NCBI GenBank assembly: GCA_030447505.1
Contig: JAUJOT010000003.1
Coordinates: 372,001-436,000 of the forward strand
DNA: 64,000 nt
Direction of reading: 5' to 3'
Source of the DNA: Solirubrobacteraceae bacterium
GTDB lineage: Bacteria > Actinomycetota > Thermoleophilia > Solirubrobacterales > Solirubrobacteraceae
Numbering within the stretch: the first letter of the stretch is position 1; each line of letters starts with the position of its first letter. The position numbers and the translations under genes are program-made. Under the pieces are notes generated by a model. That model ran no database searches. It worked only from the letters and a program-made list of their open reading frames with translations, and had not been told where the DNA came from. This document shows positions 22,601-41,560 of this stretch, one piece after another.

Positions 22601-23105
22601 GTCCGAAGCTACCGCCGGTGTCGGCGAACTTGCCGATCTCCTGGCCACCGGGAACCTGCTCTCGCACCGAGGCGCAATCAAGCAGCTGACCACCAAGGTT
22701 CAAGACGCCCGACGGCATGCGGCGAGCGAGGCAGCTGCCCGCATCACCAGCAAGCTTGACCATGCGCGCGCGGCCATTCGCGCCCAGTTCGCGGAGATGG
22801 ACAGCGGCAAGGTCGATGAGGCTATGCGCCAGCTGGAACACCTAGCGCCACCCGACGAGCCGACTACCGTGCCGCTCGGCGATCTCCTCGCCCGCGCCGA
22901 GCTCGTCGAATCACGCGCAGCCAGCACCGCGCGGGTACTCGAGGAGCTTCAGGCAGCCGGCAATCTCGCGCGGATTCATGTGATGGACTTGGTGAGTGAG
23001 CCCATCACCACCGAGGAAGAGCTCGACGTCGCCCTCGGCCGCATACGTCAAGCCGCTCTCGCCGAACTGGCGCCCCCTGACCCCAAGCAGGTGCGCCTGC
23101 AATGA
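19614..23105 (+). CDS. brxC: BREX P-loop ATPase BrxC
   Basis: The 1163-residue product matches the ~1200 aa of BrxC (PglY-related) ATPases. Walker A GFFGSGKSS lies at residues 70-78 after the typical FRGDIERPIETVIHVDL N-terminus. A Walker B-like strand is seen in TRLVFVVDEVGQYVARS (~residue 260), followed by WLVVTSQERLSDVVDSLESR, an ORC/Cdc6-like sensor region. The C-terminal half is helical with coiled-coil potential (AAARITSKLDHARAAIRAQF). BrxC is required both for host methylation and for phage exclusion in type 1 systems. The GTG start overlaps the brxB stop, and the stop overlaps pglX. Confidence 0.95.
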   Translation: MKIRELFRGDIERPIETVIHVDLSDESIVAHEIEEYVVTENIREHLEELVDVFGDTARNPSESTNVWVSGFFGSGKSSFAKTVGYALDNPLIDGRTATDRLLGRANSHKLDALLNTAHTLVPTIAVFLDLASGRDMLREGESLVLPVYRGLLKRLGYSSNELLAELEVTLEAEGRLQAFEAAVLEATDGRPWAQVRDVALAKNYASRALHLIDSANFPSADSWAKAAAAPNIDHNWLANRALELLARRGEGATRLVFVVDEVGQYVARSIQRMFDLQGLAEAFQKKRGPLWLVVTSQERLSDVVDSLESRQVEYARVQDRFPLRVDLLPSDIHEVTSRRVLDKTDAGQSLVSETLAAHRNQLGAHVRLESPTRAADIAEDQFVRLYPLVPYQVQLLIDAVSARRAQGGGSPMLGGSNRTIIKLAQQLVIDPSHGLGDDDVGALITLDRAAQLLEEAIPTSWRHEIEQVADKYGDGATETQVMRAVALCSDVPALPLTEANLAVLLHDRIGGESRRGDVADAVAGLVVDDRLRAGDDGYHIQSPEQKDWEKSRRGKEPRPADAIRIRKALVRQALGGLSVTKGRSFKVELWVEGEKLADGDVALDIEEADATRRDQLRGQSRDDTAKNRVSWVYSLSDAAYQAIVEWYRSDEMIKAKDTPSKTAAEVELLGEERQRLGRVERQLTDRLARDLTSGQVIFRGKVDEAPTGTLMQSAQKLMTERISEIYDRLDSFAAQLSTKDVMTVLRTDDLGTVNEALTESGIGLVRLTPEGHQFATDSGPLDDLLKLVKSEMSFGHAVTGALLASKLAAPPRGAPIEVAQALTAAALRAGLLEVTYQGSRIGDPSDHRLERVFGRISDFRGSSFAPPTAGPDIETRVQLAASLGKLTGTKPAIDPAGLAAALRQFFAPDREACSKIGAGLMGADLAVPDSVSRLRNIVFSFPQASDADVITTAAGAWVDLVADHETVCKLVETLDDDLPLVRAARAQIQAGGEGLGSEATAGVGELADLLATGNLLSHRGAIKQLTTKVQDARRHAASEAAARITSKLDHARAAIRAQFAEMDSGKVDEAMRQLEHLAPPDEPTTVPLGDLLARAELVESRAASTARVLEELQAAGNLARIHVMDLVSEPITTEEELDVALGRIRQAALAELAPPDPKQVRLQ

Positions 23106-26100
23106 CTGTGACCACTTCACCCACCGGACTTGACTCCGCACAACGAACCCAGCTCGAGCGGCTCGTTAGTCGGGCCCGCGCGGCGCTCGAAGCCGACCTC
23201 GCCGCACAGGCCGAGGGACGCTTCGGCATACATATCGACGGGACGATCGAGGAGGAGCAAGCCCTCCCCGATGACGCGAGCGATCGGGCGACACGCCGCG
23301 ACCTCGTCGAGATCATCGACCACGTCCGATCGCTCGGAGAGTCTCAACCCGAAGCCGTCGCGCGTCTGCTCCGAGAGGCCGCGTTCACACATCTAAACCG
23401 ACTCTTGGCGATTCGGATCGCCGAAGCCATCGGCCTCTTGCCCGAATCGCTGGCGAATGGTCTACGGTCACGCGGGTTCAAGGATCTAGGCGAGATCATG
23501 CCGATCCTCGGCGACGATTACTGGGGTTACCTTCTACTCTGCGGCGACGAACTGGCAGCCGACGCGCCGGCGCTATTTGATCCCCGGAACCCGCTTCTCG
23601 CTCTAGCCCCGAGCACGCCTGCGCTCGAAGAGATCGTCGCGTTGCTGAGCAGCGCCGATGCGACCCAACTCTGGGTCGCGCCCGACACCCTGGGGTGGAC
23701 GTACCAGTTCTTCAACACATCCGACGAGCGGCGCTTGATGCGAGAGGGAGCGACAGCCCCGCGAACCTCGCGCGAACTGGCGGTTCGCAATCAGTTTTTC
23801 ACGCCGCGGTACGTCGTCGACTTCTTGGTGCAGAACACGCTCGGTCGGCGTCTGATCGAGAACGACCCGACGAGCGCCCTGCTCGGTGAGCTGCCGCTTC
23901 TCGTCGACCCACCGACCACCCCGGGCCCGCCACTCGATCTCAGCGAGAGCAGCGTGTTGGACCCGGCATGCGGAAGCGGGCACTTCCTGCTCGGCTGCTA
24001 CGACCTTCTGGAACGCGCCTGGGAGCTACGGGGCGTTCCGCCCTCCGAGTCGGCTCCAGTGATCGTTGCATCGCTCTGGGGTGTTGACATCGATCCCCGT
24101 TGCTCGCAGGTGGCATCCGCCGCCGTGGTGCTGCGAGCACGGCGCCATTGTCGAGATCTTCCGTTGCCGCGGCCAAACATCATCACCGCACGAAGCCTGC
24201 CGGCCGGACCGGCCGCGCTCCCGCACGACGGCCTCACGCCTGCAAAGCAGCGCCTTTTGGCGCGAATCCGCGAAGCGCTCGAAAGCGCGCCGCTGCTAGG
24301 CACACTCCTGAAAGCCGAGGACGCAATCGAACAAGAGATCCGTCATGCAGCGTTCGACGGCGCAGCTGCATCACTGCCGCTGACGGACGACGCCTTCAGC
24401 CAGGTCGAGACCGATCTCATGGCTCACCTCCAAGCCGTCGCTGACCAGGCTTCTTCATCTGTCGCCGAACGACTGCTCGCCGCGGAAGCCGATGACGCCC
24501 TCCGGCTACTCGACGTAGTGCGCAACCGATACGACGTCGTCCTCATGAACCCGCCTTTCGGAGAACCAGTCGCTGAGACCAAGCCCTACCTCCGCGCTGC
24601 CTACCCGTGGATCCCCACGCGCGATTACAACCTTCTCGCGGCATTCGTGGGCCGCGGTTTGGAGTTGTGTAGACCGGATGGTTATGTCGGCGCGATCACT
24701 TCCCGTGCGGGCATGTTCCTGACTACCTCCGAACGATGGCGGCGCGACATACTCCTCGGGAGCCGGATGGTGGCGCTGGCCGATCTAGGGTACGGCGTGA
24801 TGGAAGGCGCCCAGGTTGAGGCGGCCGCATACGTACTTGGCTCGACCCGACACGGCGATGACACCCTTGTGGCGATCCGGGTGTCTCGGGATGCTGAGCG
24901 CCCTTCGGCACTACGAGAGGCGGTGCTAAACGATCGAGGGGGTAGGTCTGACGAACGGATCTTCCGAGTAGCCCTAGCTGACATTGAGCGTATTCCGGGG
25001 GCCCCACTTGCATATTGGGTGGGCGGCTCGGTCCGTGCCATGTTCGTCCGCCATCGTCTGATTGGAAAGAGCTACCCCGTGCGCACCGGGCTCCAATCCG
25101 GTGGGGACGAACAGTGCATTCGCTTGTTCTGGGAGATCGATCCGCGGAGGATCGCTCGGACGCGCGCAGAGACGCTTGCTGGGCTGCGCTGGGCCCCGAT
25201 CGCAAAGGGAGGAGAGAACAATCCGTATTGGAGCGACGTCTTCCTTCTTATCGACTGGAAGAACGACGGCGAACTCGTGAAGAGTCTGCCTGGTGCAGTT
25301 GTGCGAAACTCGGACTATTACTTCCAATCCGGGTTGACATGGACTCGCCGTGCTGCCACTCTGGCCCCTCGTGTATTACCGGCAGGATGCATCATTACGA
25401 CTGAAGGTCCTAGCTGCTTTACCTCTCACGATGATGCCTTGGCCCTCGTGGGCTGGCTAAATCTGCGAGTGACGCGAAGGCTGGCGGATCTATTGACGAG
25501 CGTTGCGGAGGGGGCTATGGCTGCTGGAGGTAGCCCGAAATACGAGGTTGGCGTTGTCCAGCGTCTGCCGTGGCCAGTGGCCGATGATGGGGATCTCTCC
25601 ACAGACGTGATCTCGCTTGTCCGGCGGCTCGTCGAGATGCGGTGCCGCTTCGATGAGGGCGATGAGAGTGCACGTCGGTTCATCGCTCCTGAGCTCTGTC
25701 GGCATGGCGATGGGGGCGTCCCGGACAGGGCTAGGGCGGCCTTGACCCATCGGGAGGAGGTGAGCGCGTGTGCCATAGAAGCGAGCTACGCGCTGGAAAA
25801 TGTCTCCTACCAGCTTATCGATCTAGACGAAGAGGGTCGTCGCTTCGTTGAAACCGAATCGGGACCGCATCCAGGGGCCTACGGTGGCAACGAATGCCAA
25901 GAGGAGCGGTTCAGCGAGCTTTATGGTGGGTCGCTCCAACGACTCACCGATGCTGCTGTACACGCGCGTGGTGTATTTCGATCCCTGACTACAAAGACCG
26001 AGATCGCAAACCGACGGCTGGAGCTCGTTTGCCATGCATTGGGACTATCGGTGCGAGCGGCGGTCGCATGCCGGAAAGAACTTGGCCTCTTGCCTCCAGA

Positions 26101-26947
26101 TGAAGCGAAGCGGGGGGCCGATGACCTGTTGTCGTATCTCGTTGGGATCGCCTTCGGCCGGTGGGACGTTCGGATCGGGGGAGACCCGTCGCTGGCGCCA
26201 GCTCCACCACCGCTGTTCGATCCGGTGCCGCTGTGTCCGCCGGGCATGCTTCTCGGCACCGACGGATTCCCGGTGGGTGATGTGCCGCCGGGCTACCCGC
26301 TAGAGCTCCCGCCCGGACGCTTGTTGTTGGACGAACCGGGACATAGCTGGGATGCGGAAGCAGCGGTTCTGCTGGCGGCCGAAGCTCTCTTCGACGGCGC
26401 TCAGGACCGCGTCTCGGAAATGTTGACAATTCTGGGCCGGAAGACCTTGCGTGATCATCTACGCAGACAGTTCTTCAAGGACCACCTCTCGCGGTACTCC
26501 AAGAGCCGGCGAAAGGCGCCGATCTATTGGCCGCTCAGCGTCCCTTCGAGGAGTTGGGGCGTCTGGATCTACGCGCCGATGCTGAGCCGAGAAACGCTCT
26601 ATGCGGTCGCGAGCGAAGCCGCTCGGCGCGAGCGGCTCGCGGTTGAGGCGATCGCTCGGCTGCAGCGTGAGCAGCAGGAAGGCAATCTCGCCCGGCCAGC
26701 CCGGAAGATCGCCGAGGAGCTCGATTCCGAGGAGAAGCTATCCGAGGAGCTGCGCCGATTTCGGACCGAGGCCGAACGGATTGCCGGGCTCGGATGGAGG
26801 CCGAATCTCGATGACGGCGTCGTTCTCTGTGCTGCACCCCTCGCCGATCTCTTCCCGGCGTGGCCCGATGCAAATAAGGCCCGGGATGAGCTTCGAAACG
26901 GCGACCACGAGTGGGCCGCCGTCGCTCGATGGGCTGAGGACTTGTGA
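23102..26947 (+). CDS. pglX: BREX adenine-specific DNA methyltransferase PglX
   Basis: The product is 1281 residues. The class I SAM-binding motif DPACGSGHFLLG begins at residue 287, and the catalytic N6-adenine motif, here NPPFGEP rather than the more common NPPY, begins at residue 483. The N-terminal region (RNQFFTPRYVVDFLVQNTLG) is the helical domain common to Type IIG/PglX enzymes. The long C-terminal part (~600 residues) should hold the target-recognition region. In BREX this enzyme places N6-methyladenine at a non-palindromic site to mark self DNA. G+C and codon use fall in the middle third (about 24.7-26.1 kb), consistent with a horizontally exchanged recognition domain. Confidence 0.95.
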   Translation: MTVTTSPTGLDSAQRTQLERLVSRARAALEADLAAQAEGRFGIHIDGTIEEEQALPDDASDRATRRDLVEIIDHVRSLGESQPEAVARLLREAAFTHLNRLLAIRIAEAIGLLPESLANGLRSRGFKDLGEIMPILGDDYWGYLLLCGDELAADAPALFDPRNPLLALAPSTPALEEIVALLSSADATQLWVAPDTLGWTYQFFNTSDERRLMREGATAPRTSRELAVRNQFFTPRYVVDFLVQNTLGRRLIENDPTSALLGELPLLVDPPTTPGPPLDLSESSVLDPACGSGHFLLGCYDLLERAWELRGVPPSESAPVIVASLWGVDIDPRCSQVASAAVVLRARRHCRDLPLPRPNIITARSLPAGPAALPHDGLTPAKQRLLARIREALESAPLLGTLLKAEDAIEQEIRHAAFDGAAASLPLTDDAFSQVETDLMAHLQAVADQASSSVAERLLAAEADDALRLLDVVRNRYDVVLMNPPFGEPVAETKPYLRAAYPWIPTRDYNLLAAFVGRGLELCRPDGYVGAITSRAGMFLTTSERWRRDILLGSRMVALADLGYGVMEGAQVEAAAYVLGSTRHGDDTLVAIRVSRDAERPSALREAVLNDRGGRSDERIFRVALADIERIPGAPLAYWVGGSVRAMFVRHRLIGKSYPVRTGLQSGGDEQCIRLFWEIDPRRIARTRAETLAGLRWAPIAKGGENNPYWSDVFLLIDWKNDGELVKSLPGAVVRNSDYYFQSGLTWTRRAATLAPRVLPAGCIITTEGPSCFTSHDDALALVGWLNLRVTRRLADLLTSVAEGAMAAGGSPKYEVGVVQRLPWPVADDGDLSTDVISLVRRLVEMRCRFDEGDESARRFIAPELCRHGDGGVPDRARAALTHREEVSACAIEASYALENVSYQLIDLDEEGRRFVETESGPHPGAYGGNECQEERFSELYGGSLQRLTDAAVHARGVFRSLTTKTEIANRRLELVCHALGLSVRAAVACRKELGLLPPDEAKRGADDLLSYLVGIAFGRWDVRIGGDPSLAPAPPPLFDPVPLCPPGMLLGTDGFPVGDVPPGYPLELPPGRLLLDEPGHSWDAEAAVLLAAEALFDGAQDRVSEMLTILGRKTLRDHLRRQFFKDHLSRYSKSRRKAPIYWPLSVPSRSWGVWIYAPMLSRETLYAVASEAARRERLAVEAIARLQREQQEGNLARPARKIAEELDSEEKLSEELRRFRTEAERIAGLGWRPNLDDGVVLCAAPLADLFPAWPDANKARDELRNGDHEWAAVARWAEDL

Positions 26948-29454
26948 TGACTGCGTTGCGTGACCACCTGGCTGCCGAGCTGGCGAAGAAGGTCAGCCAG
27001 CGCGGCGTGGTGGTCTGGCAGGACACGGACCGTGAGTACGGAGACGTCGCCGGCACGCTGTGCCCGCCTGATGCGCGCTTTGCAGCCTACGACGGCAGCT
27101 GGTACGCGCTACGCCTCGACGTCGAGTCGCTGCTGCGTGCCGACAGCCCACCAAGACTCGTTGTCTACGCACCTGGACCTGCACCGGTAGACGATCCTCT
27201 CGAAGAGGTCCGCGCAGCTGGGATCCGGTTCGCGATCAGGCTCGGAACGCTCGTTAAGAACGCTCTGAAGGGCGAGCTGAGCGAACAACGCCTCACTGAG
27301 ATCGGCAGCCAGGCCCGCACACTGGCGGAGGCCGAATCGGCGGTTGGCGCCGACGCCGGTGGCGATGTCCGTCTCATCGGCATTCTGGGAGCGAGCGATA
27401 GCCGCACGATGGCTTTGCGCATCCTCACGGGCGAGCGCGCGGAGGCTCTAGACGATCAAGCAGCATGGTCTGCTGCCGCCGAACTCCTTGCCCGCCAGAT
27501 CGGAGGTTCGATCGCCGGGGAATGGCACGATGTCCGTCGCGCCGCGCTCCGGCAGATGGCGCTTACCGAGATCGCCATCGCGACCGACGGCCTGCCAGAT
27601 GCGCTGGCACCGGCGTGGGGAACGGTGGATGCTGAGCAGCGCAGGCGCACCGCCGACTTGCTGCAGGCGTGGCAGACCTACCCCGGGCGGCGTGAGGACT
27701 ACGGAGCCGTGGCTCATTTGGTCGATGACGACCTAGGTCTTGCAACCAGCCTGCCATGGGCTGACGGACTCATCGACTGCACCGCGACGCCGGCCCTCGA
27801 AGAGGTCGCGTTCGGAGAGGCGGTCGAGCGGCTCGCCGACAACGACACGGCGGAGGCTTCGGCCCTCGCCGACCGCCGTCTCAAGATGAGCCCGTGGGTC
27901 CAACCTCAAGGGCCGGCCGGCGACGGCTGGGCATCGATCGCTGCCCGCTGGCGTGCGGTGAAGGCCACCGCCGATCTGCGAACGGCTGTCTTGACCGCCC
28001 AAGCACCCGCCCACTGGTCAGCGGGAGAGCTGTTGAGCTGGTACGTCGACGGTGGCTGGGAAGTCGACCGAGCGCACCGTCGGTTGGAGATCGCCCGCAA
28101 CGATCTCCGAGTCCTGGGTGATCTTGAGCCGGCATTCACGGCTGCACGCGTCGCCCACGAGGAGTGGCTCGAGGGGACACTGGTCGCGTTCACGAACGCA
28201 ATCGAGCGCGATGGCTTCGACGTCGGGGGCCTGGCCCGCCAGGGAGACATCCACGATCAGTGGGTGCGGGATGCCGACGCACCCGTCGCGTACGTATGGG
28301 TCGACGCCCTGCGGTTTGAACTCGCCACGGATCTGGCAGACGGTCTTCGCGCTGACGGTCACCGCGTGAAGCTTCACGCGGCGGTGGCGGCCGCGCCGAC
28401 GATCACTCCAGTGGGCATGGCCAATCTCACTCCGGGCGCTGGAGCCGGCCTCTCGCTCGAGCTTGAAGGCACTGACCTCGCGATTCGCGTTGACGGCTCC
28501 ACCGTGGCGAGCGTTGCCGATCGGGTCGCTCGCCTGCGTGCTGCGCACGGCGACAAGGTTCTCGATCGCACGCTTGAGGTCGTCGCTGGCCAGGGCGAGA
28601 AGGAACTCAAGCGCGCACTCGGTGACGCTGATCTGCTGCTCGTCCGGTCCCAAGAGTTGGACGCGGCCGGCGAGTCGGGCATGCTCAACGCAGCCTGGGC
28701 ACAGTTCAACGCAGTGCTCGACCTGTTGCGCAATCTCGTCGCTCGGCTCGGCCAGGCGGGGGTCCGGCGGATCGTCATCGCCGCCGATCATGGCTTCGTC
28801 ACCCTGTCCCGCGGGCTCGGACCCAACCGGTCGATCGACCCGCCCGCAGGCGGCACCGGCCGCCTCCATCGCCGCGGATGGGTCGGCAAGGGCGCGTCAA
28901 CGACTGAGAGCACCCTGCGCGTTTCGCTGGCATCGACGGGCGTACCGAGCGATCTGGACCTGATCGTGCCCCGCGGGCTAGCCGTGTTCAGAGCCGGCGG
29001 CTCGAAGCAGTTCTTCCACGGGGGCCTCTCCCCGCAGGAACTCGTCGTGCCGGTGATCGTCATCGACACCGAACCAGCGCCTGCTCCGAAGCAGCTTCAG
29101 GTCGACGTTTCGGTCGCGGGTGGACGTATTACGACCGGAGCGTTCGCCGCCACCGTGGGATTCGCCGGCGATCTCTTCACTAGCGAGATCACCGTGCGAG
29201 TGGTGGCCAAGGGGGCGAAGGGAAGCGACGTTGTCGCTCGGGTTGTGTCTGGCGACGGTTACGACCCAGCGACGGGTTCGGTTGCTCTGCGGGCCGACGG
29301 CCCATCTCCGGTGCTGACGTTCCAGGTGACCGCAAACCTTGAGCGGGACACAACAGTCGAGATCGAGGTCCTCGATGCCAGGACCGGTGTTCGCCTCGGC
29401 CGCGCCGAAGCCAACGTCTCGGCGAAGATCGTAGTGGAGGATGAGCTCGCGTGA
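26944..29454 (+). CDS. pglZ: BREX phosphatase-like protein PglZ
   Basis: The 836-residue product has the PglZ domain, an alkaline-phosphatase-superfamily fold. The metal-binding Asp is in YVWVDALRFELATDLADGL (D454), and the second metal motif is RRIVIAADHGFVTLSRG (D615-H616). The N-terminal ~400 residues are helical. The C-terminal part (FHGGLSPQELVVPVIVIDTE, then beta-rich sequence) is typical of BREX-1 PglZ proteins. PglZ is essential to BREX. It interacts with the methyltransferase, and nuclease or phosphodiesterase activity has been discussed for the family. It overlaps pglX and brxL by four bases each. Confidence 0.93.
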   Translation: MMTALRDHLAAELAKKVSQRGVVVWQDTDREYGDVAGTLCPPDARFAAYDGSWYALRLDVESLLRADSPPRLVVYAPGPAPVDDPLEEVRAAGIRFAIRLGTLVKNALKGELSEQRLTEIGSQARTLAEAESAVGADAGGDVRLIGILGASDSRTMALRILTGERAEALDDQAAWSAAAELLARQIGGSIAGEWHDVRRAALRQMALTEIAIATDGLPDALAPAWGTVDAEQRRRTADLLQAWQTYPGRREDYGAVAHLVDDDLGLATSLPWADGLIDCTATPALEEVAFGEAVERLADNDTAEASALADRRLKMSPWVQPQGPAGDGWASIAARWRAVKATADLRTAVLTAQAPAHWSAGELLSWYVDGGWEVDRAHRRLEIARNDLRVLGDLEPAFTAARVAHEEWLEGTLVAFTNAIERDGFDVGGLARQGDIHDQWVRDADAPVAYVWVDALRFELATDLADGLRADGHRVKLHAAVAAAPTITPVGMANLTPGAGAGLSLELEGTDLAIRVDGSTVASVADRVARLRAAHGDKVLDRTLEVVAGQGEKELKRALGDADLLLVRSQELDAAGESGMLNAAWAQFNAVLDLLRNLVARLGQAGVRRIVIAADHGFVTLSRGLGPNRSIDPPAGGTGRLHRRGWVGKGASTTESTLRVSLASTGVPSDLDLIVPRGLAVFRAGGSKQFFHGGLSPQELVVPVIVIDTEPAPAPKQLQVDVSVAGGRITTGAFAATVGFAGDLFTSEITVRVVAKGAKGSDVVARVVSGDGYDPATGSVALRADGPSPVLTFQVTANLERDTTVEIEVLDARTGVRLGRAEANVSAKIVVEDELA

Positions 29455-31511
29455 GCGAAGCGACCGCCCCTACCAGCACGCTGATGGACGCGCTCGACCG
29501 CCTGGCCAACGACGCGTTCGCGGGCCGGGTCGTCCGCAAGGACCTCGTCCGGCAAGTGAAGGTCGGCGCCAACGTACCCGTCTACGTCCTTGAGTTCCTG
29601 CTCGGCAAATACTGCGCCTCCGACGACCCCGCGGCGATTGCGACCGGCCTCCAAGTGGTCAACCAGACCCTGCAGGAGAACTTCATCCGCCCCGATGAGT
29701 CCGAGCAGGCGAAGGCGAAGCTCAAGCAGAAGGGCCAACACCGCCTCATCGACAAGGTCGACGTCCGGCTCGTCGCCAGCGAGGACAAGTTCTGGGCCCA
29801 TCTCTCGAGCTTCGGCGACAAGTACGTCCATATCTCCGAGGACGTCGTCTACAAGTACGAGCGCCTACTAGGCGGCGGCGTCTGGTGCCAGCTCGACCTC
29901 CTCTACAACGCGGACGACGAGGAGGAGAAGAAGCGACCGTTCTACATCCGGGCCCTAAAGCCGATCCAAGTCGCCGCGTTCGACATGGACGAATACCTAG
30001 AGGCTCGTCAGCGGTTCACGCGCGATGAGTGGCTTGACTTGATGACGCGGTCGATTGGACTTGAGCCAACGCATTACGACCTGCGCGGAAAGCTTCTCGC
30101 CACCCTGCGGCTCCTACCGATGGTCGAGCGGAACTACAACCTGATCGAACTCGGGCCGTGGGGAACAGGCAAGTCCTTCATCTTCCGTGAATCGTCGCCC
30201 AACGCGATCCTGATCTCGGGCGGCAAAGTCACGGTCGCCCAGCTGTTCGTCAACCTCAGCTCGAGCCGTGTAGGGCTGCTGGGCATGTGGGACGTCGTGG
30301 CCTTCGATGAGGTCGCGGGGCTCGAGATGTCGGACTCGACCGTCGTGAACATGCTCAAGGACTTCATGGAGTCCGGCTCATTCGCGCGAGGCAAGGAGGA
30401 GGTCCCAACTGAGGCATCGATCGTGTTCATCGGGAACACGAGCAAGCCCCATCAAGAGCTCGTCCGAAGCGCGCATCTGTTCGCCGATCTACCGAAGGCG
30501 ATGATCGATCCGGCGTTCCTCGACCGGCTCCACTACTACCTCCCCGGCTGGGAAGCGCCGAAGCTCGAGAAGCGTTTGTTCACCGACCACTTCGGCCTGG
30601 TATCCGACTACTTCGCAGAGGCGCTGCGTCAGCTCCGAAAGCAAAGCCAGGTGAGCGCGATCGACAGCGACTTCGCGCTCGGCTCTCATCTCTCCGCGCG
30701 AGACGAGAAAGCCGTGCGCAAGACCGTGTCGGGTCTGCTGAAGATCCTGCATCCCCATGGGGAATGGACTCACGGAGAGCTACGCGAATACCTCGAGTTC
30801 GCCATGGAGGGGCGCCGACGGGTCAAGGAGCAGTTGAAGAAGCTCGCCGCCCACGACTATGCCAAAACCGCCTTCTCCTACGCGGAGCGCGACACTGGCC
30901 ACGAGATCTGGGTTGATGTGCCCGAGCAGCCGGAAGAGATCGATCCGCTCGCTGAGGACGAGGCTGTGCCAAGCGAAGCTCGCGCAGCAGGTTCAGCGAC
31001 AGACGACGGCGCAACGCGAGGAGCGTCTGTTGCGGAGCTCATCGCCCGCGGTGAAGGAGCTCGCGTCGAGTTCAAGCAGACCGCCCGAGTCAACCTTTCG
31101 ACGAAGCAGCGAGATCAGGTCATCGAGCTAATGGTCGCGAAGTCGATCGCCGGCTTCATGAACGCGCACGGCGGCACTCTTCTCATCGGCGTCACCGATC
31201 GTGGGGAAATCTTCGGGCTCCAGAAGGACCTGAAGACGCTCGGCAGCAAGCAGAACCGAGACGGTTTCGAGCTTTGGCTCACCGGGCTGCTCGACAACAT
31301 GCTCGGACCGACCGCCACTTCGCAAGTGTCGATCTCATACGAAGACTTCCCCGAGGGCAGCGTGTGTCGCATAGACGTGGGTCCTGGCAAGCGGCCCACC
31401 TTCGTGAAGGGTGGCAAGGGAGAGGCCGACCTCTACGTCCGCCTCAATAACTCGACCCGTCTGCTCAATACCGCGGACGCAGTGGAGTACGTAAGCTCGC
31501 ACTGGCGGTAG
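29451..31511 (+). CDS. brxL: BREX protein BrxL with a Schlafen/AlbA_2-like C-terminal domain
   Basis: The product is 686 residues. Residues 1-490 are BrxL-like: the N-terminal DNA-binding region (LVRQVKVGANVPVYVLEFLL), then the AAA+ core with Walker A GPWGTGKS at 235-242, Walker B VVAFDEVAGLEMSDS, sensor IVFIGNTSKPH, and DRLHYYLPGWEAPKLEKRLF. After an acidic linker (~490-520) the protein does not continue into the Lon-like protease domain usual for BrxL. Instead, from about residue 524, it reads SVAELIARGEGARVEFKQTA, then IAGFMNAHGGTLLIGVTDRG and LYVRLNNSTRLLNTADAVEY, the signature of an AlbA_2/Schlafen-type domain. It is the last gene of the operon. BrxL forms a DNA-binding motor needed for phage exclusion. 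Confidence 0.9.
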   Translation: MSEATAPTSTLMDALDRLANDAFAGRVVRKDLVRQVKVGANVPVYVLEFLLGKYCASDDPAAIATGLQVVNQTLQENFIRPDESEQAKAKLKQKGQHRLIDKVDVRLVASEDKFWAHLSSFGDKYVHISEDVVYKYERLLGGGVWCQLDLLYNADDEEEKKRPFYIRALKPIQVAAFDMDEYLEARQRFTRDEWLDLMTRSIGLEPTHYDLRGKLLATLRLLPMVERNYNLIELGPWGTGKSFIFRESSPNAILISGGKVTVAQLFVNLSSSRVGLLGMWDVVAFDEVAGLEMSDSTVVNMLKDFMESGSFARGKEEVPTEASIVFIGNTSKPHQELVRSAHLFADLPKAMIDPAFLDRLHYYLPGWEAPKLEKRLFTDHFGLVSDYFAEALRQLRKQSQVSAIDSDFALGSHLSARDEKAVRKTVSGLLKILHPHGEWTHGELREYLEFAMEGRRRVKEQLKKLAAHDYAKTAFSYAERDTGHEIWVDVPEQPEEIDPLAEDEAVPSEARAAGSATDDGATRGASVAELIARGEGARVEFKQTARVNLSTKQRDQVIELMVAKSIAGFMNAHGGTLLIGVTDRGEIFGLQKDLKTLGSKQNRDGFELWLTGLLDNMLGPTATSQVSISYEDFPEGSVCRIDVGPGKRPTFVKGGKGEADLYVRLNNSTRLLNTADAVEYVSSHWR

Positions 31512-32330: not shown

Positions 32331-32908
32331 CAGACGGTAACGGTCTCGGCGCCCTCCGGGTGGTCGGACTTCGTGGGGGCGACGAGGATGGCGTGGCGCT
32401 CGACGGCGATGACGAGCTTTGCGAGGTCGCGGTAGCCGATGATCCGTCGGAACTGCTGCTCGGCGACGAGCATGCCGGCGGCGGTCCAGCGCTTGCGCAT
32501 GTCGCCGTCCTGCCAGCGCTTCACGTTGCGCTGCGTGTAGCGGACGATCTCGATCATCGACTCACAGGGGTTCGTTGATGAGAGCGTCGTTGCGAGCTTG
32601 CCAGTGATCCTCAGGCGCATCAGCGTCAGCGTGTCGGCCATGCCTTCGCGCAGCGAGCCGGCGGCATCCGGCCACGTGCGGTCGAGCTCGCCGGCGAGCA
32701 GTTGCAGGCGCTGCTCGGCCAGCTCGGCGTCGGTCAGCGCCCACGACGCCCGCATCCGCGCGCGGACCTGGTCGCGGTCACGCTCGGGCAGCAAGTCGGT
32801 GACGTTGCGCTCCTTGTGGCGATGGCAGCGGTGGACCAGCGCGTGCTCGCCGAAGCGCGATCCTCGACCGGCTGCTGCACCACGCGATCGCGGTACGAGT
32901 GCGCTCAG
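32331..32908 (-). mobile_element. IS256-family transposase C-terminal fragment
   Basis: The minus strand reads RFGEHALVHRCHRHKERNVT then DLLPERDRDQVRARMRASWA, LREGMADTLTLMRLRITGKL, LSSTNPCESMIEIVRYTQRN, VKRWQDGDMRKRWTAAGMLV and AEQQFRRIIGYRDLAKLVIA. This is the end of an IS256/mutator-type transposase, including the CESMIE catalytic Glu and the NVKRWQ.G.M..RWTA block. The N-terminal part is missing. The fragment joins, in the same reading frame, an inverted IS21 copy at 32909. Confidence 0.85.
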
Positions 32909-33662
32909 CCGCCCAGGGCGACGAGCACGCGGTGCATCGCCTCGGCCAGATGCCCGAAGGTCATCTGCTCGCAGAAGACGCCCCTGAAGCGCCCGGAGTG
33001 CGACAGCGCGCCCAGCAGCACGAAACGCCGGCTGCCCCCACGGCGTGTCGTGCAGCTCCAGCCAGTCCCACTGGATCTCCTCGCCGGCAGGATGGTCGAT
33101 CTCGACCGTCACCGCCTGACCGCGGTGGTGCTCGCAGACCAAGCAGACCGGCCGCAGCTCGAGCCGACGCAACTCGCGAACGAGCGTCGGATAGCTGTGA
33201 TCGAGCCCCGCCTCTGCGAGCTCGCGATGCAGCACCGTCGCGTCCAGGTGCGGGTCATCAACGAACCGCGCCTCGATGTCGCCGCGAAACGGCTCCAGGC
33301 AGCTCGCCGCCGGCGCCCGGTGCTGCCCGCCACCCTCGCCGTTCAGGTACTTGGCGACGGTCTTGCGGTCGCGGCCGGTGTGCCTGGCGATCTGCGACAC
33401 CTTCCAGCCGCGCGCAGCAAGCGCGTGGATCTCCACGTCGTCCTCCTCTGTGAGCATCCCCGCCGGTCCTCCTCCGGTTCATGGCCTAGACACCACGACC
33501 GTGAGGGGACCCCCGACAGAACGCGCACGCGCGCGTGGAAAGCGACTACGGCTCGGCGCTACGACCCTTCGCCTCCGTCGCTCCCCACGCGCGGTCCTCT
33601 ACGCCCTACCGAGGTGGGGAATTCCGATGATCAGCACCGGGGAAGAAGATCGTGATCGCGGC
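32909..33662 (-). repeat. Inverted repeat copy A with IS21-family istA fragment
   Basis: About 754 bp are almost identical, in inverted orientation, to 40467-41220; I found only about four base differences and one indel. It contains the first ~145 codons of an IS21 IstA (LTEEDDVEIHALAARGWKVS, then QIARHTGRDRKTVAKYLNGE and EEIQWDWLELHDTPWG) from 33457 leftwards, plus ~205 bp of shared sequence upstream of the start. The same frameshift after WGQPAF is present in both copies. The fragment stops abruptly at 32909, where IS256 sequence begins. Confidence 0.88.
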
Positions 33663-33965
33663 CACGTCGAACGACGTCGCGTCCGAGCGGTCGGTGCGCT
33701 GCTCGAGCTGCGCGTAGAGCGAGCGTCATCGTCGAGTCCGGTTTGCCCGACCTGGCTCATCATCCACTCGACGTCGAAGCCGTTGGCGAGCAGCGTGATG
33801 GAGATGTAGGTGCGGCGGAGGGTGTACGGGGTGGTGCATCGGGAGCGGCGGCCGTTGTTGTTCTTCGAGCCGCTGGTTCGCTCCGGCTGCCGGCTCATTC
33901 AGGATCCTGCCGATGCGCTGGCGGCTCATACGGCCGCCGCGGAGGTTGGGAACGCGTGATCCTCT
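33663..33965 (-). pseudogene. Second tyrosine recombinase remnant
   Basis: The minus strand gives GGRMSRQRIGRILNE then ANQRLEEQQRPPLP, TPYTLRRTYISITLLANGFD and VEWMMSQVGQTGLDDDA. A frameshift leads to SLYAQLEQRTDRSDATSFDV. This matches the C-terminal catalytic region of actinobacterial integrases (TPHTLRRTYIS...VMxQVGH...VYAQLxQR). The box II His before TLRR is Tyr, and the GH before the loop is GQ, so it is inactive. It ends exactly where inverted repeat A begins, so the IS21 copy may have inserted into it. Confidence 0.75.
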
Positions 33966-34087: not shown

Positions 34088-36235
34088 ATGAGATCGGATG
34101 CAGATCCCATAGGCGCTAAGGCGCTCGGACTGCGGGCACTGCCCGACGGCTGGACGCCGCCGTTTCTCGCCCTCGATCCGGTTGCTGTGAAGGCTCTACT
34201 CGCGCGAGAACCACCCGCCCCCATGAGGCGGGTGCTCGAGGAGTTCGTCGATCGGTCACCGGGACGGCTCCTTGTGCGCTCTGATGGAGCCGACGAGGCC
34301 CTCCACCCAGGATCCGGCCGCACCGTCGTGGCAGCCGCCAATCCCGACGCGGTGACAAGCGCGTTGGAGCGAGTGGCCAACGGTAACCGGGCGGCCGCGG
34401 TCGTACAGGCAGCAATAGAGCCGGCGGTTGTCGGGCTGCTCAGTAACGAGCGGCGAGTCGCCGAACACCCTCATGATTGGGTGCTCGAGGGAGAGATCCA
34501 CCTGCGGGGGCCTGAGATCCGGAGAATTCGGGCCTCAGAGGTTGAGGGGTTCGCCCTCGATGCATCGTCGCCGTCCTCAGCCGTTGAGTCCGTGCGCCGC
34601 ATTGCGCGCTATCTGCAGGGCATCGGCGGGCGGTGGCGCGTGGAATGGCTGTGGGATGGCGAGCGGATCTGGGTCGTACAAGCCGACAGCGTCCGCGAGG
34701 GCGCCGCGGCGGACCGGCCGCTCGGCAAGCTGCCCTCGGTCGAGGTTCCCCGCGGCCGGCTTCTTGGGTCAGTGCGCTTCCCAGGACGTAAGCTCGACCG
34801 TTGGCGAACCTTCGAGCAGCTCGATCTGCCCCGCATCGAACTACTGGCAATCGATGGCCGCCGCTACCAGACGAGCCGCCAGCAGGAGCTCATCGAGGCG
34901 ATCGAGGAGCTCGGGCCCGGGCCACTCGTCGTGCGGACGGATCTCGCTGCCGCCCACGACCCGCTCCTGCTGCCGACCAGCGGACCGATGTCCCGGCCGA
35001 CCGACGTGCTCTCCTATATGCGGGAGACCTCCGAGCGCTTCGCTAAGGCTGGTGTCCCCAGTGATGGCTGGGCCTTCCTGGTCGCCGTCCTCGTGCCGGC
35101 GCAGGCGAGCGCATGGGCGCAGATCGACGCGGCAGGGGAAGTGACCATCACTGCCCTCTGGGGCTACCCCGATGGCCTGCTGCACCTGCCCCACGACTCG
35201 TACACGATCGACACCACGAGCGAGGTAGAAGTCCTCCGTTCGTTCAAGCCGGCGTGTCTGGTTCCGAGGGCCGGGAAATGGGTCACTCAGTCGGTCCCGC
35301 CGCCGTTCGATTGGCAGCGAGTGCTCGACGACGAGGAGGCTCGAGCGATCGCCCAACTAGCGCGAAAGGTCGCGGATAAGGCCGGACCGATGCAGTTGCT
35401 GGTCCTCGCTCAAGTGGGTGGCCTCCGGGGTCGCGACGGTCTGCTGCCGTTTCACTTCACACGCTTGACCTCGACGCCCGGACCCGTGAGAAGCGCCTTG
35501 GCGGCCGAGCGCGACGAAGTGGTGCTGCGCCGGCCGCAGGATTTAGACGCGATAGCCTCCGACCCTGCCCCGGCGGCGGTTCGCGTAGAGCCCAGCCCCG
35601 CATGGCTGCGGGATGCAGGTTTCCTGACGGATATCGGCGCCTGGGCCGCTTCGCGCGGAGTGGTGATCTTGTTCGCTGGCAGCATCCTCGGGCATGCGTT
35701 CCATCTGCTCTCCAACGCCGGCGCCACCGTCGTAACCCCAAGGGACTCTCGGATTGATCACGGTGAGCCGTTGTGCACGGTCGTCGTCGCCCACTACGGC
35801 GGGCTAGAGCGCGTACGGACACTGCCGTGCCAAGATGCGAGGCAGCTTGCCGTTGAGACCCTCGCGGCGCTCGCCATCAATGCGTCCCTCGACGCCGACG
35901 ACGAGGAGCATGTCCGACGAGCGCTCTGGGTGCTCCACCCGGCTCTACACGTCGACCGGCCGCCAGAGGCGGGCTTCGAATCACTCGGTTGGCTTCGAGC
36001 CGGCCAAGAGTCGCTGAATGGGCCGGGGACCGTTCCGCTCTTCATGGACACCGCCGGCTCCGCGCCGGTCGCGCAGCTCGCACGGTCCGGAATCACAGTG
36101 CCTGCAACCGGCCGTGACAAGTCCAATGCGGGTCTGCGCTCAACCTTCCCTCTAGCTGACGGATGGGAGCTTCGTATCAGCGTCGGCGAGCACCAGATCG
36201 ACGTCATGGTGCGGCCGGCCGGTGGGGTCGACTAG
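34088..36235 (+). CDS. PPDK/PEP-synthase-like ATP-grasp protein, first gene of a three-gene cassette
   Basis: The product is 715 residues. The N-terminal ~200 residues look like the nucleotide-binding half of PEP synthase/pyruvate phosphate dikinase: IGAKALGLRALPDGWTPPFL, GRLLVRSDGADEALHPGSGR, AAVVQAAIEPAVVGLLSNE and VEWLWDGERIWVVQADSV correspond to the GGKGANL, VRSSA, VVVQ.M and (D/V)IEWA...l.iLQaRP blocks. A second unit follows: LVVRTD, then ASAWAQIDAAGEVTITALWG and YPDGLLHLPHDSYTID. Near residue 535 a GSILGHAFHLLSNAGATVVT segment resembles the swivelling phosphohistidine domain. The family converts ATP with a phosphoryl-histidine intermediate; the acceptor is unknown here. The following AAA+ gene starts 68 bases downstream. 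Confidence 0.65.
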   Translation: MRSDADPIGAKALGLRALPDGWTPPFLALDPVAVKALLAREPPAPMRRVLEEFVDRSPGRLLVRSDGADEALHPGSGRTVVAAANPDAVTSALERVANGNRAAAVVQAAIEPAVVGLLSNERRVAEHPHDWVLEGEIHLRGPEIRRIRASEVEGFALDASSPSSAVESVRRIARYLQGIGGRWRVEWLWDGERIWVVQADSVREGAAADRPLGKLPSVEVPRGRLLGSVRFPGRKLDRWRTFEQLDLPRIELLAIDGRRYQTSRQQELIEAIEELGPGPLVVRTDLAAAHDPLLLPTSGPMSRPTDVLSYMRETSERFAKAGVPSDGWAFLVAVLVPAQASAWAQIDAAGEVTITALWGYPDGLLHLPHDSYTIDTTSEVEVLRSFKPACLVPRAGKWVTQSVPPPFDWQRVLDDEEARAIAQLARKVADKAGPMQLLVLAQVGGLRGRDGLLPFHFTRLTSTPGPVRSALAAERDEVVLRRPQDLDAIASDPAPAAVRVEPSPAWLRDAGFLTDIGAWAASRGVVILFAGSILGHAFHLLSNAGATVVTPRDSRIDHGEPLCTVVVAHYGGLERVRTLPCQDARQLAVETLAALAINASLDADDEEHVRRALWVLHPALHVDRPPEAGFESLGWLRAGQESLNGPGTVPLFMDTAGSAPVAQLARSGITVPATGRDKSNAGLRSTFPLADGWELRISVGEHQIDVMVRPAGGVD

Positions 36236-36303
36236 CGCATCGCGCGGACGTTCTGCAATGCGGCGCCCACGATCGGGGGTCAGAGGCGTCATTCTAGGGC
36301 ACG

Positions 36304-38484
36304 GTGCACACTGCAGGAGTCGGACCGACGACTGGCGACTGGCCATACGAGCAGCCCGCGTGGCGACGAGTCGCCGAGCAGGCTGCCGAAGCACTCAAGG
36401 GCCTGCGAACGAACGGCGCCGGGTTTAAGGCCATCGACAGCGACCAGCAGGCGGCGATCGTCTCGTCGGCGCGCTGCGTTGAGGCGCTCGTCGAACTGAC
36501 TGACATAGCGGGTGAGTGGGCCCGCCCTTTCGACTACATAGACGCGGCCGTCGCGGATGTACTCGCGAAGGCGGGACTCGACGTGCTCAGCGAGCTAGCA
36601 AAGGAGGGCGACCTTGAGGACGCGACCGTCTCTCGAGCGGCGGAAGCGCTCGAACCGCATAAGGACAACCTCCCTGACGAGACCTCCGAGGGGCGGTACG
36701 CGCCATACGCGGTTTCGCTGCTCGTCACTGCTCGAGCCCGAGCGTGGCTTCGGCGCGCAGGTGACGCCGCCCAGGAGGGCATCACCGTCGAAGTCGACGA
36801 GACTCTCGCACCGCTGACCGGCGAGCTGGTGCGACAGAGCATGTTCGTCGATGCGGTCGACGACGAGCATGTGCATCCCTACATCATCTACCGAACCGTG
36901 AAGGCGCTGTGGCTCGCGGAGCTCGCGACTGACGAATCACCCGTCTACCTGCTTGCGCGCTCGCAGAAGGAGACGCTCAAGGCCAAGGCGGTACGAATCA
37001 CCGAGCGTCTCGTCGCCGAGCATGCCCTGCGCGATGTTACCGACAGCCAATCGGTCGCCCTTGCCTTCTGCGCCGCCACCCTAGCGGTCCCGCCGGCGAA
37101 CGACCTGCGCTACATCGACACCGCCCTCGATGCCGCCTTGGCCAGCCAGTCGTCAAACGGAGGCTGGCCCGACGGTCGCGCTATCACCTGGCACCACGAC
37201 CCGGTCACTGGCGAGCCGTTCATGGTTTCTACGCACGAGGTCGCGCTCGCGGTTGCCGAAACGATCAGCCTGCTCGGCATCCCCAGGGCAACGCGAGGCC
37301 GTCCGATGCCGCGGGCCATCAAGGGACTGGAAAGAGCCTTGGACCACGCGAGTTCGAGCGCACTCCGGTCATCCTCACCTCCCCCTGGCCCAATGTATGG
37401 GTGGGCGGCGTCTCACCTGTACGGTCAGACGCAAGTGCAAGCCGCGCCCACTGCCGCTGTGTTGCAGCTCGCAGTGACAGCGCGGCGAGTCGCCGAACTC
37501 CAACGGCAAACCGACGCCTTGGCCCGGTTCGCCGACGTTTGGGATCCCGTTAGCGACTACACCGCCCCGTTTTTGAAGTGGGAGAAGTACCGCGAAGCGA
37601 ACGAGCCGGACTCCGAGAACCCGATCCTGCCCTACCTGCATGGCAGGTTTGTCGATCAGGCGAAGCGGCGCCGTCGCGAGGATCCCAGACCATGGACCCG
37701 CACGTCCGCAATGTCGGTGATCCTGTTCGGTCCGTCCGGCACCACGAAGACGACCATCGTCAAGTCGATGGCCGAGGGGCTTCAATGGCCGCTGGTAACG
37801 TTGAGTCCGGGTACGTTTGTCGAAGACGGCCTCGACAATGTCGAGCGGCGGACAAGCGAGCTGTTCGTCTGGTTGCGAGACCTTGCCGAAACCGTTGTCC
37901 TCTTCGATGAGTGCGACGAGCTATTCCGCGAGCGCAATCAGGGGCTTCGCCAGGATGGCCCGGTCCCCGGCGGTGACCAGGTGCGATCGATCACCGCTTT
38001 CCTAACGGCCAGCATGCTCCCAAAGCTCCAGGATTTGCGCGACCGCGGCCAGGTCTTCTTCGTCATCGCGACGAACTATTTCGACCAGATCGACGCTGCG
38101 GTCCGCCGCGTCGGCCGCATCGACTCGATCGTCGGCGTCGGCTGGCCCGATCGGGCGCAACGGGAGCGCACGATTCGCAAAGAGTTCTGTGACGCGCTTG
38201 CTCGGCGGCGGGCAACCCTTCCCGATGGAGTCGTCGACCAAGCCGTCGAGGCGCTCGCCTCGAACACCCGTTACTTCGTGCGGGGCGACCTCGTAGGCGC
38301 CGCCAGCGCTATGGCCGAACGGTACTCTGAGATGGATTCGCCCGAGGCAGCAAAGAACGTTGCCAACGAAATCAGTCAGCAGCGGGAAAAGTCCATTAGC
38401 GACGAGGATTTGAAGGCCTTCCGAGCCGACGCCCCAGACAGCAGCGTCCCGCACCAGCGTAACCGCGGGGAGCTGAAGTCATGA
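36304..38484 (+). CDS. AAA+ ATPase with a long helical N-terminal region
   Basis: The product is 726 residues from a GTG. The C-terminal ~270 residues form an AAA+ module. Its Walker A, GPSGTTKT at 476-483, has Thr where the second-last Gly of GxxGxGKT is expected. Walker B is VVLFDECDELFRERN, sensor 1 is VFFVIATNYFDQIDAAV, and VRRVGRIDSIVGVGWPD is an arginine-finger and sensor region like that of classical FtsH/VPS4-type proteins. The ~450 N-terminal residues are helical and contain SQSSNGGWPDGR and GPMYGWAASHLYGQ pieces reminiscent of alpha/alpha-toroid repeats. Such a protein could remodel a partner on sensing a ligand. The stop overlaps the HIT gene by four bases (ATGA), which indicates coupled translation. 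Confidence 0.75.
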   Translation: MHTAGVGPTTGDWPYEQPAWRRVAEQAAEALKGLRTNGAGFKAIDSDQQAAIVSSARCVEALVELTDIAGEWARPFDYIDAAVADVLAKAGLDVLSELAKEGDLEDATVSRAAEALEPHKDNLPDETSEGRYAPYAVSLLVTARARAWLRRAGDAAQEGITVEVDETLAPLTGELVRQSMFVDAVDDEHVHPYIIYRTVKALWLAELATDESPVYLLARSQKETLKAKAVRITERLVAEHALRDVTDSQSVALAFCAATLAVPPANDLRYIDTALDAALASQSSNGGWPDGRAITWHHDPVTGEPFMVSTHEVALAVAETISLLGIPRATRGRPMPRAIKGLERALDHASSSALRSSSPPPGPMYGWAASHLYGQTQVQAAPTAAVLQLAVTARRVAELQRQTDALARFADVWDPVSDYTAPFLKWEKYREANEPDSENPILPYLHGRFVDQAKRRRREDPRPWTRTSAMSVILFGPSGTTKTTIVKSMAEGLQWPLVTLSPGTFVEDGLDNVERRTSELFVWLRDLAETVVLFDECDELFRERNQGLRQDGPVPGGDQVRSITAFLTASMLPKLQDLRDRGQVFFVIATNYFDQIDAAVRRVGRIDSIVGVGWPDRAQRERTIRKEFCDALARRRATLPDGVVDQAVEALASNTRYFVRGDLVGAASAMAERYSEMDSPEAAKNVANEISQQREKSISDEDLKAFRADAPDSSVPHQRNRGELKS

Positions 38485-39152
38485 GCACATGCCGACTGTG
38501 CACGCAGATCGCAGGCGACCCGCACGGCGATATGCTCGAGGAACTCCTCGGCAACGGCCACTACCTCCGCCGAGTGGTCGACCTGGATACCTCGTTCGTC
38601 GCGATGCCAAGCGTCGGCGCACTGGTGCCCGGGCACCTGCTGCTGTGCCCCGCCGAACACGCACGTAGCTTCGCCTCGCTGGCGCACCTCGATGCAGCGC
38701 AGTCGGCTCTCGCGAGCGTCGAACGAGGGCTTGCCACCTGGACAAGACAGACCGTGCAGTTCTTCGAGCACGGCAACGCCCGAAACGGCAACGCCATCGC
38801 CTGCACCGTCGAACACGCGCACATCCACCTGCTGGCCGGCGTACCTGATTTGGCGCCGCTGGTCGAGTCCGCCGGCGGTTGGCAGCCGGTCGTCGGCGGC
38901 CTTCAGGGCGTGGCTGATGTCGTCGGCGATGGCGAGTACCTTCTCCTGGGCGGCCTCGGAGGGCGCCTTTGGACGCGCCCCGCCGCCTCGGGTCATGCCT
39001 TGCCGTCGCAGTGGTTGCGACAGGTAGCTGCCGAGGCGATAGGCGAGCCGCAAGAATGGAACTGGCGGCAGCACCCCCGGCGCGAAATGGTCCGTGCCTC
39101 GTGGGAAGCCGCCAAGAGCCTCCCGAGGATCGGTTCGGCGCTCGCCGCTTAG
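38481..39152 (+). CDS. HIT-domain protein, third gene of the cassette
   Basis: The 223-residue product carries the histidine-triad motif EHAHIHLL, with H112, H114 and H116. This is the hallmark of HIT nucleotide hydrolases and transferases, which act on nucleoside phosphoramidates, dinucleoside polyphosphates or AMP conjugates. The N-terminus begins MSTCRLC, a C-x2-C pair as in zinc-binding HIT proteins, followed by LVPGHLLLCPAEHARSFA, which matches the HIT P-G-H-(h)-L-(h)-h-P-K.H block. A ~90-residue C-terminal extension (EWNWRQHPRREMVRASWEAA) is not typical of minimal HIT proteins. It is translationally coupled to the AAA+ gene and convergent with the next gene, overlapping it by four bases. 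Confidence 0.82.
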   Translation: MSTCRLCTQIAGDPHGDMLEELLGNGHYLRRVVDLDTSFVAMPSVGALVPGHLLLCPAEHARSFASLAHLDAAQSALASVERGLATWTRQTVQFFEHGNARNGNAIACTVEHAHIHLLAGVPDLAPLVESAGGWQPVVGGLQGVADVVGDGEYLLLGGLGGRLWTRPAASGHALPSQWLRQVAAEAIGEPQEWNWRQHPRREMVRASWEAAKSLPRIGSALAA

Positions 39153-39472
39153 GCGTAGTCGTCGCGGATAACCGCCTCGGCCAGCCGCGCGTCGGACCGC
39201 CGGGCGGCGACCGCGTCGCGCCACGCACCGGAGACTGCCGCGAAGCTGAACGCCGACTGGCGAACGTCCCGTCCGTCGGGGTCAGTCAGACGCCACCAGA
39301 ACTGTCCGCGCCAGTCGCTGAAGATACGGAACACGTACACAGACGAGAACACCTCCGGCAAGGCGTCGGGGACAAGATCCGGGACCGCGACAGAACCTAG
39401 TTCGCGCCCAGCAGTTTCGCTTGGACGGAAGCCGCTCTCGCCGGAACTTTTTTCTCCCGCGAAATGGTTCAT
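39149..39472 (-). CDS. Small protein with a YegP/DUF1508-like segment
   Basis: The 107-residue product starts from an ATG that lies inside the shared palindrome. The segment VYVFRIFSDWRGQFWWRLTD followed by PDGRDVRQSAFSFA resembles the YegP/DUF1508 beta unit (F.l..d..G.wrWRL...nG.iia.Sge.y), and a helical AWRDAVAARRSDARLAEAV tail follows. The family is small and its function unclear. It is divergent from the winged-helix gene, and its coding end overlaps the end of the HIT gene, so it is likely controlled by the same operator. The family call is tentative. Confidence 0.5.
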   Translation of the reverse strand: MNHFAGEKSSGESGFRPSETAGRELGSVAVPDLVPDALPEVFSSVYVFRIFSDWRGQFWWRLTDPDGRDVRQSAFSFAAVSGAWRDAVAARRSDARLAEAVIRDDYA

Positions 39473-40179: not shown

Positions 40180-40466
40180 TCGGTGATCATGGCTCGTCCG
40201 TCGGATTGACGCTCGAACCCGCTGCGCTTCGGAGTGGAGCCCCTCTCTTCGGGACTGGCGGCGGTTGTCGGGCTCCCCAGAGAGGCAGGACCAGTATTCG
40301 ACCGGTACCGTGGCAGAGATCGCTACGCGGTCAGGCCACTCGACCAGTGCGCAGCTGCCGATCTGTGGCGTCGCGTGTGCCGGTGACGCCGAGGCCGACC
40401 TAGGTGGACCTTGCGAAGAGATGGTGACGCTCGAGCGAGGCGCGGTTGCCCGCACCGCGGGGCTGA
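40180..40466. other. Gene-poor spacer before inverted repeat B
   Basis: Overlapping frames on both strands are open, but none is recognisable. A plus-strand reading with VTLERGAVARTAGLTAITIF crosses into the inverted repeat. It likely contains the upstream region of the 81-residue gene on the minus strand. Confidence 0.35.
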
Positions 40467-41220
40467 CCGCGATCACGATCTTCTTCCCCGGTGCTGATCA
40501 TCGGAATTCCCCACCTCGGTAGGGCGTAGAGGACCGCGCGTGGGGAGCGACGGAGGCGAAGGGTCGTAGCGCCGAGCCGTAGTCGCTTTCCACGCGCGCG
40601 TGCGCGTTCTGTCGGGGGTCCCCCTCACGGTCGTGGTGTCTAGGCCATGAACCGGAGGAGGACCGGCGGGGATGCTCACAGAGGAGGACGACGTGGAGAT
40701 CCACGCGCTTGCTGCGCGCGGCTGGAAGGTGTCGCAGATCGCCAGGCACACCGGCCGCGACCGCAAGACCGTCGCCAAGTACCTGAACGGCGAGGGTGGC
40801 GGGCAGCACCGGGCGCCGGCGGCGAGCTGCCTGGAGCCGTTTCGCGGCGACATCGAGGCGCGGTTCGTTGATGACCCGCACCTGGACGCGACGGTGCTGC
40901 ATCGCGAGCTCGCAGAGGCCGGGCTCGATCACAGCTATCCGACGCTCGTTCGCGAGTTGCGTCGGCTCGAGCTGCGGCCGGTCTGCTTGGTCTGCGAGCA
41001 CCACCGCGGTCAGGCGGTGACGGTCGAGATCGACCATCCTGCCGGCGAGGAGATCCAGTGGGACTGGCTGGAGCTGCACGACACGCCGTGGGGGCAGCCG
41101 GCGTTTCGTGCTGCTGGGCGCGCTGTCGCACTCCGGGCGCTTCAGGGGCGTCTTCTGCGAGCAGATGACCTTCGGGCACCTCGCCGAGGCGATGCACCGC
41201 GTGCTCGTCGCCCTGGGCGG
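40467..41220 (+). repeat. Inverted repeat copy B
   Basis: About 754 bp are almost identical, inverted, to 32909-33662. It holds a ~205-bp non-coding lead and the first part of an IS21-family istA starting at 40672. Copy B continues beyond 41220 into more istA sequence, whereas copy A is cut by IS256 sequence. The two copies point outwards and bracket 6.8 kb of cargo. Confidence 0.88.
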
Positions 41221-41560
41221 CACCCCGCGCGTCTGGCGCACCGACCGGATGGCCACGATCGTCGTGCCGGGCACCGACCGGCTGACGACCGACGCGGCGC
41301 AGGCCGCCAAGCACTATGGCGTCGAGGTCGCGGTCTGCCCGTCGCGGCGCGCCCAGCGCAAGGGCGTCGTCGAGGCCGCGGTGAAGTACACGACGAAGTC
41401 GTGGTGGCGCAGCGCGCCGGTCACGACGATGGCCGAGGCCCAAGCGTCACTTGATGCCTGGTGCATCGAAGTTGGCGACCAGCGCAAGCGGCCGAAAGGG
41501 ACGGTCGGCCAGATCGGCTCCGCGGAGCCGCTGCGCGCGTTGCCGCGCGCTGCCTACCCC
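40672..41560 (+). pseudogene. IS21-family transposase IstA, frameshifted and truncated
   Basis: From GTG 40672 or nearby ATG: a helix-turn-helix (SQIARHTGRDRKTVAKYLNG), then EEIQWDWLELHDTPWGQPAF with the first catalytic Asp. After an extra base the next frame reads LLGALSHSGRFRGVFCEQMT, TPRVWRTDRMATIVVPGTD with the second Asp, and SRRAQRKGVVEAAVKYTTKS with the Glu. The C-terminus breaks off after YPAVIAVERR, and no istB ATPase gene follows. The single-base frameshift is shared with copy A. The element is therefore dead on its own. Confidence 0.85.

Follow-up and report, generated by a model that had tools for sequence, protein, structure and literature searches.

We think that there is about an even chance that three adjacent genes in the analyzed stretch of DNA (64,000 nucleotides from a Solirubrobacteraceae bacterium, hereafter the window) form a rare, mobile module that acts on nucleotides and most likely serves against phages. 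The genes encode a protein that we named P1, an AAA+ ATPase and a HIT protein. ORF calls place all three on the same strand and the last two genes overlap by the sequence ATGA, which confirms the gene arrangement given in the preliminary description. Neither P1 nor the trio as a whole is named by any model of Pfam, NCBIfam or PADLOC, and the PADLOC and NCBIfam matches to the window trio are to generic AAA only. In the literature searched, a description of the P1-AAA-HIT trio was not found. The features of the region are listed in Table 1.

Table 1. Features in and around the trio (positions are those of the window).
Feature	Position	Strand	Basis
BREX operon (weak BrxE, BrxA, BrxB, BrxC, PglX, PglZ, BrxL), upstream of the trio	17731..31511	+	PADLOC
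Left truncated IS21-like remnant	32908..33664	.	inverted repeat pairs
Fragment resembling the C-terminal box of tyrosine recombinases (TPYTLRRTYISITLLANGFDVEWMMSQVG)	33599..33898	-	translation, assigned by eye
P1, PPDK/PEP-synthase-like dikinase, 715 aa; tandem ATP-grasp-like modules and phosphohistidine-like domain	34088..36235	+	ORF, profiles
P1 module 1, ATP-grasp-like, residues ~1-200; K11, R64, E186, Q198	34088..34687	+	alignment, profile; approximate limits
P1 module 2, second ATP-grasp-like, residues ~225-470	34760..35497	+	hhalign match with the ATP-grasp of PEPS (E about 8e-4); approximate limits
P1 swivel-like domain, GSxLxH	35519..35743	+	assigned by motif; invariant across five relatives
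P1 candidate carrier His536	codon 35693-35695	+	motif
P1 MazG remnant (all-alpha NTP pyrophosphohydrolase domain)	35753..36007	+	alignment; approximate limits
AAA+ ATPase, 726 aa, GTG start	36304..38484	+	PF00004, 3.4e-20
AAA all-helical N-terminal region, residues 1-407	36304..37524	+	secondary structure of model
AAA Walker A, GPSGTTKT, residues 476-483	37729..37752	+	sequence, alignment
HIT protein, 223 aa; FEHG, HAHIH and C-terminal SQxLR...WNWR motifs	38481..39152	+	PF01230, alignment
Right IS21-like remnant, truncated and in the opposite orientation to the left one	40464..41221	.	inverted repeat pairs

The first gene had been called PPDK-like, a label that is absent from every library used and yet is backed by profile matches. 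P1 gave nothing above the Pfam cut-offs, and PF01326 (PPDK_N) was unmatched even at E values up to 1. With shallow alignments underlying this and the other hhalign and profile E values for P1 and the dikinases, P1 matched PEP synthases (PEPS) by hhalign at 8.8e-4, against at least 0.19 for the reversed and 20 shuffled decoys, and two weaker sub-matches fell at the expected ATP-grasp positions. The rhizobial-type dikinases matched PEPS at 2.8e-4 (best of 20 decoys, 0.0082). Searches with the profile of the P1 family brought up PEPS/PPDK-like proteins in other genomes at 6.9e-10 to 3.6e-6, their identity being judged from their sequences, together with lone MazGs.

In an alignment of five P1 sequences (the window, three genomes of the same family, G597, G892 and G874, and Caulobacter), residues K11, R64, E186, Q198 and H536 are invariant. 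K235 and R283 are invariant in the second module, in which the Glu/Gln pair was not recognized. The invariant residues probably reflect the pattern of an ATP-grasp domain combined with a phosphohistidine carrier, the PPDK positions having been assigned via profile and motif. RPH cannot do without the corresponding Lys and Arg, and its His is the phosphate carrier, but the Mg-binding Glu is dispensable (PMC4844700). P1 has in common with PEPS, PPDK and RPH the ATP-grasp Lys and Arg, the Glu and Gln near the ATP-grasp end, a carrier-type His in a GSxLxH or TSH motif, and profile similarity. Unlike these enzymes, it has two ATP-grasp-like modules and no visible PEP TIM barrel, it stays below the Pfam cut-offs, and a MazG domain is fused in its family. 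G597, G874 and Caulobacter have the latter domain whole, with its EExxE..D motif; it is decayed or absent in G892 and in the window, whose P1 has lost the motif. The AlphaFold2 model of P1, made from a single sequence, was unusable (pLDDT 36). Together, the sequence comparisons support P1 as a probable distant relative of PPDK and PEP synthase with tandem ATP-grasp-like modules.

The assignments of the second and third genes as an AAA ATPase and a HIT protein both held, each with a match above the Pfam cut-off. The AAA protein scored 73 bits against PF00004 and has conserved DECDE, N591 and R605; with its Walker A/B, sensor and Arg-finger region it belongs among the classic AAA+ proteins. Its P-loop is indeed unusual, as had been remarked, but its relatives also differ at the same position. 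Structure matches of its AF2 model (pLDDT 64) to FtsH, p97, Rix7 and proteasomal ATPases were taken up by the AAA domain and not by the helical N-terminus, for which the motif QSSNGGWPDG alone only suggests that it may be an alpha-toroid. The PADLOC models IetA and TRIP13 matched the AAA domain only, with E values of 6e-9 and 8e-8, respectively. Likeness to the IetAS and TRIP13 systems is limited to this domain, and the window protein differs from them by about 400 extra helical residues. Beside its gene, no IetS protease, HORMA or CD-NTase was recognized. We therefore rejected an IetAS identity, because a protease is absent from the neighbors and only the generic AAA part matches.

The HIT protein scored 24.8 bits against PF01230 (cut-off 21.5) and contains HAHIH, which assigns it to the HIT superfamily. 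It shares this motif with Fhit and HinT, but represents a distinct subfamily that has FEHG and a C-terminal SQxxR...W(N/D)W extension. In four partner genomes, the HIT profile reached E values of 1e-68 to 1e-81, as compared with 1e-6 or weaker for their other HIT proteins. One HIT protein of the same subfamily was observed within a nucleoside-type gene cluster on R. leguminosarum pRL1 (L010, 5173-13329; neighbors assigned by eye).

The co-occurrence check called for in the preliminary description revealed a conserved set, and neither rare co-occurrence nor a main location in metabolic operons was found. G597 contains P1-AAA-HIT in the same order as the window and with ATGA overlaps. In G892, the three genes lie within 9.6 kb in a rearranged order, and their products are 44% (P1), 38% (AAA) and 53% (HIT) identical to those of the window. 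G874 and Caulobacter present another arrangement, HIT-membrane protein-P1+MazG, and a HIT gene is near all five P1 genes. An AAA gene adjoins HIT at L015, L016, L017, L019 and in Parabacteroides, such AAA-HIT pairs spanning Mycobacterium, Armatimonadota, Phycisphaerales and Bacteroidales, with ThyX joining them at both Bacteroidales loci. AAA-DUF4406-dikinase was found in two rhizobia and in a member of the Mycobacteriales (G1039), and AAA occurs without HIT at L018 and L020. Because these genes turn up as a group in genomes that are only distantly related to one another, the association exceeds chance; since HIT or AAA can be absent or replaced, it is a modular network and not a fixed trio. 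Within the family, P1 matches were found in five of 146 genomes, one of them being a lone MazG only.

Several candidates were discarded. The GNAT-AAA plasmid matches L012 and L014 have the AAA domain alone in common with the trio, L021-L024 (Myxococcales, Deltaproteobacteria) are other AAA proteins, and G935 is a lone MazG surrounded by phage-like ORFs. Relatives of P1 were not found in the viral contigs scanned, where AAA gave weak domain-level matches only, and the phage records searched yielded none for either P1 or the rhizobial dikinase. To the right of HIT, the window contains a small gene (39149-39472, - strand) and a winged-helix-like gene (39485-39916, + strand), which have look-alikes near the AAA gene of G892. 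As blastp at 1e-4 matched nothing, we did not retain these two small genes as shared with G892.

The BREX operon ends, with BrxL, upstream of the trio at the distance of 2.6 kb noted before. Its first gene (17731-18285) is a weak BrxE match (E 0.005), and BrxL (29451-31511) has a C-terminal Schlafen/AlbA_2 domain (PF04326, residues 535-672, E 2.2e-13). The flanking IS21 sequences do form an inverted pair, with paired inverted repeats of 607 and 160 nt that are 99% complementary; however, they are not full copies, as both are truncated remnants, and the left one runs into a Mutator-transposase fragment. The window trio also has an integrase-like fragment close by (Table 1). Elsewhere, AbiEi, a Cap4-like NTPase and an integrase are neighbors of the G597 locus, the G892 locus adjoins a SIR2 protein, and the G874 locus adjoins HmaABC. 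The AAA and HIT genes of L016 are beside dndA/C/D/E-type genes, and the AAA gene of L018 is beside DndB, DndE and a GmrSD/Orf5 protein. Within the DNA covered, no known defense genes were seen at L015, L017, L019, L020, G1039 or in Parabacteroides. Judged from raw neighbor observations, relatives of the trio are often beside defense systems. Among legible ORFs, no BREX genes were seen around the P1 relatives of G597, G892 and G874, which lie by AbiE/Cap4-like, SIR2 and Hma genes, and we rejected the trio as a fixed BREX component. The proposal of an undescribed defense or stress module stands as to its conservation, its place in defense or mobile islands, its pairing of a phosphoryl-transfer-type enzyme with a HIT enzyme and its lack of a match in the libraries and literature searched. 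Reversal of one enzyme's reaction by the other, sensing or execution by the AAA protein and protection against phage are roles that the module may have.

The rhizobial dikinase was seen at ten further plasmid loci. In eight of them, its neighbors encode a YfbR-like HD protein, DUF7002 and a P-loop-PurA fusion. This cassette is conserved at L095 and L097-L103 over about 6.3-14 kb, on plasmids of Rhizobium, Sinorhizobium, Agrobacterium and Methylobacterium. At the other two loci (L096 and L104), an anti-phage-type dGTPase, a PfkB-NDT fusion and QueC are beside the dikinase. These plasmid neighbors support a nucleotide substrate for the rhizobial dikinase branch. The AAA partners of P1 and of the rhizobial dikinases are related, but the match between P1 and these dikinases spans 46-59 columns only, and their nucleotide partners therefore apply to the window only by analogy. 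Across lineages, the nucleotide-type partners comprise MazG, ThyX, DUF4406, YfbR-like, PurA-like, PfkB-NDT, QueC and dGTPase.

Among known systems, the phage Z-cluster consists of purZ, datZ and mazZ (PMC8342488). PurA-like and HD proteins accompany the rhizobial dikinase and MazG is fused in P1 relatives, a likeness that is an analogy only; the window contains no intact copy of these genes. The closest validated neighbor in the literature searched is a defense system that combines the domains of a thymidylate synthase, a dNMP kinase and a 5hmdU kinase (DefensePredictor, PMC13092281). It and nucleotide-pool defense by the anti-phage dGTPase share nucleotide-acting enzymes with the present loci, an anti-phage-type dGTPase adjoining two of the rhizobial dikinases, and yet it is a different system: the text consulted reports no dikinase, HIT or AAA of this kind.

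For the anti-phage module, we infer every reaction and substrate as well as the sensing role of the AAA protein and the defense function. The ATP-grasp part of P1 would phosphorylate the swiveling histidine H536 from ATP, yielding AMP and Pi, and P1 would then pass the phosphoryl group on to a nucleotide or a nucleotide-derived acceptor. The MazG domain fused in P1 relatives would convert NTP to NMP, and a nucleotide conjugate of the same pathway would be what the HIT protein cleaves. As a partner, the AAA+ protein would sense infection or remodel, a place that the membrane protein would take in other lineages.

Three other readings were weighed. The trio might belong to a factory for modified nucleotides, in which the dikinase phosphorylates an analogue, MazG or HD enzymes remove the normal competitor, and the unusual (deoxy)nucleotide enters DNA or poisons phage polymerases. 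The genes at eight of the ten rhizobial plasmid loci, which resemble purZ-datZ-mazZ, would fit this, as would dGTPase, PfkB-NDT and QueC at two rhizobial loci and ThyX in Bacteroidales; however, these synthesis genes are all missing from the window and no polymerase or DNA-modifying gene accompanies the trio. We consider such a factory unlikely. Ordinary accessory salvage of nucleotides or specialized metabolism, found in plastic regions by chance, would account for the related HIT gene on pRL1 and for those loci that show no defense genes. The sporadic distribution in the family, the variable partners and the repeated defense neighbors speak against it, and we rate it as rather improbable.

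HIT proteins can strip AMP from conjugates, and the AAA domain is a classic one akin to those of FtsH, p97 and proteasomal ATPases. Both points would suit the modification of a macromolecule, with P1 phosphorylating or nucleotidylating a protein or a nucleic acid end, HIT removing the group and the AAA+ protein unfolding or remodeling the target. The partner genes across lineages, by contrast, act on small nucleotides, and we regard this explanation as very unlikely.

The nucleotide-acting anti-phage module thus remains our preferred reading. A more far-reaching version of it, which we put forward tentatively and consider doubtful, is an immunity of a new class: a PPDK-type dikinase would make or rewrite a nucleotide signal or poison, HIT would control it and the AAA+ ring or the membrane protein would act on it, with MazG, ThyX, DUF4406 and PurA-like variants. 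If true, PPDK-type dikinase chemistry would join the known anti-phage chemistries; AAA proteins with a helical N-terminus and HIT, ThyX, DUF4406 and PurA-like orphans would be linked into one nucleotide-centered network; and rare genes that current libraries leave blank would gain names.
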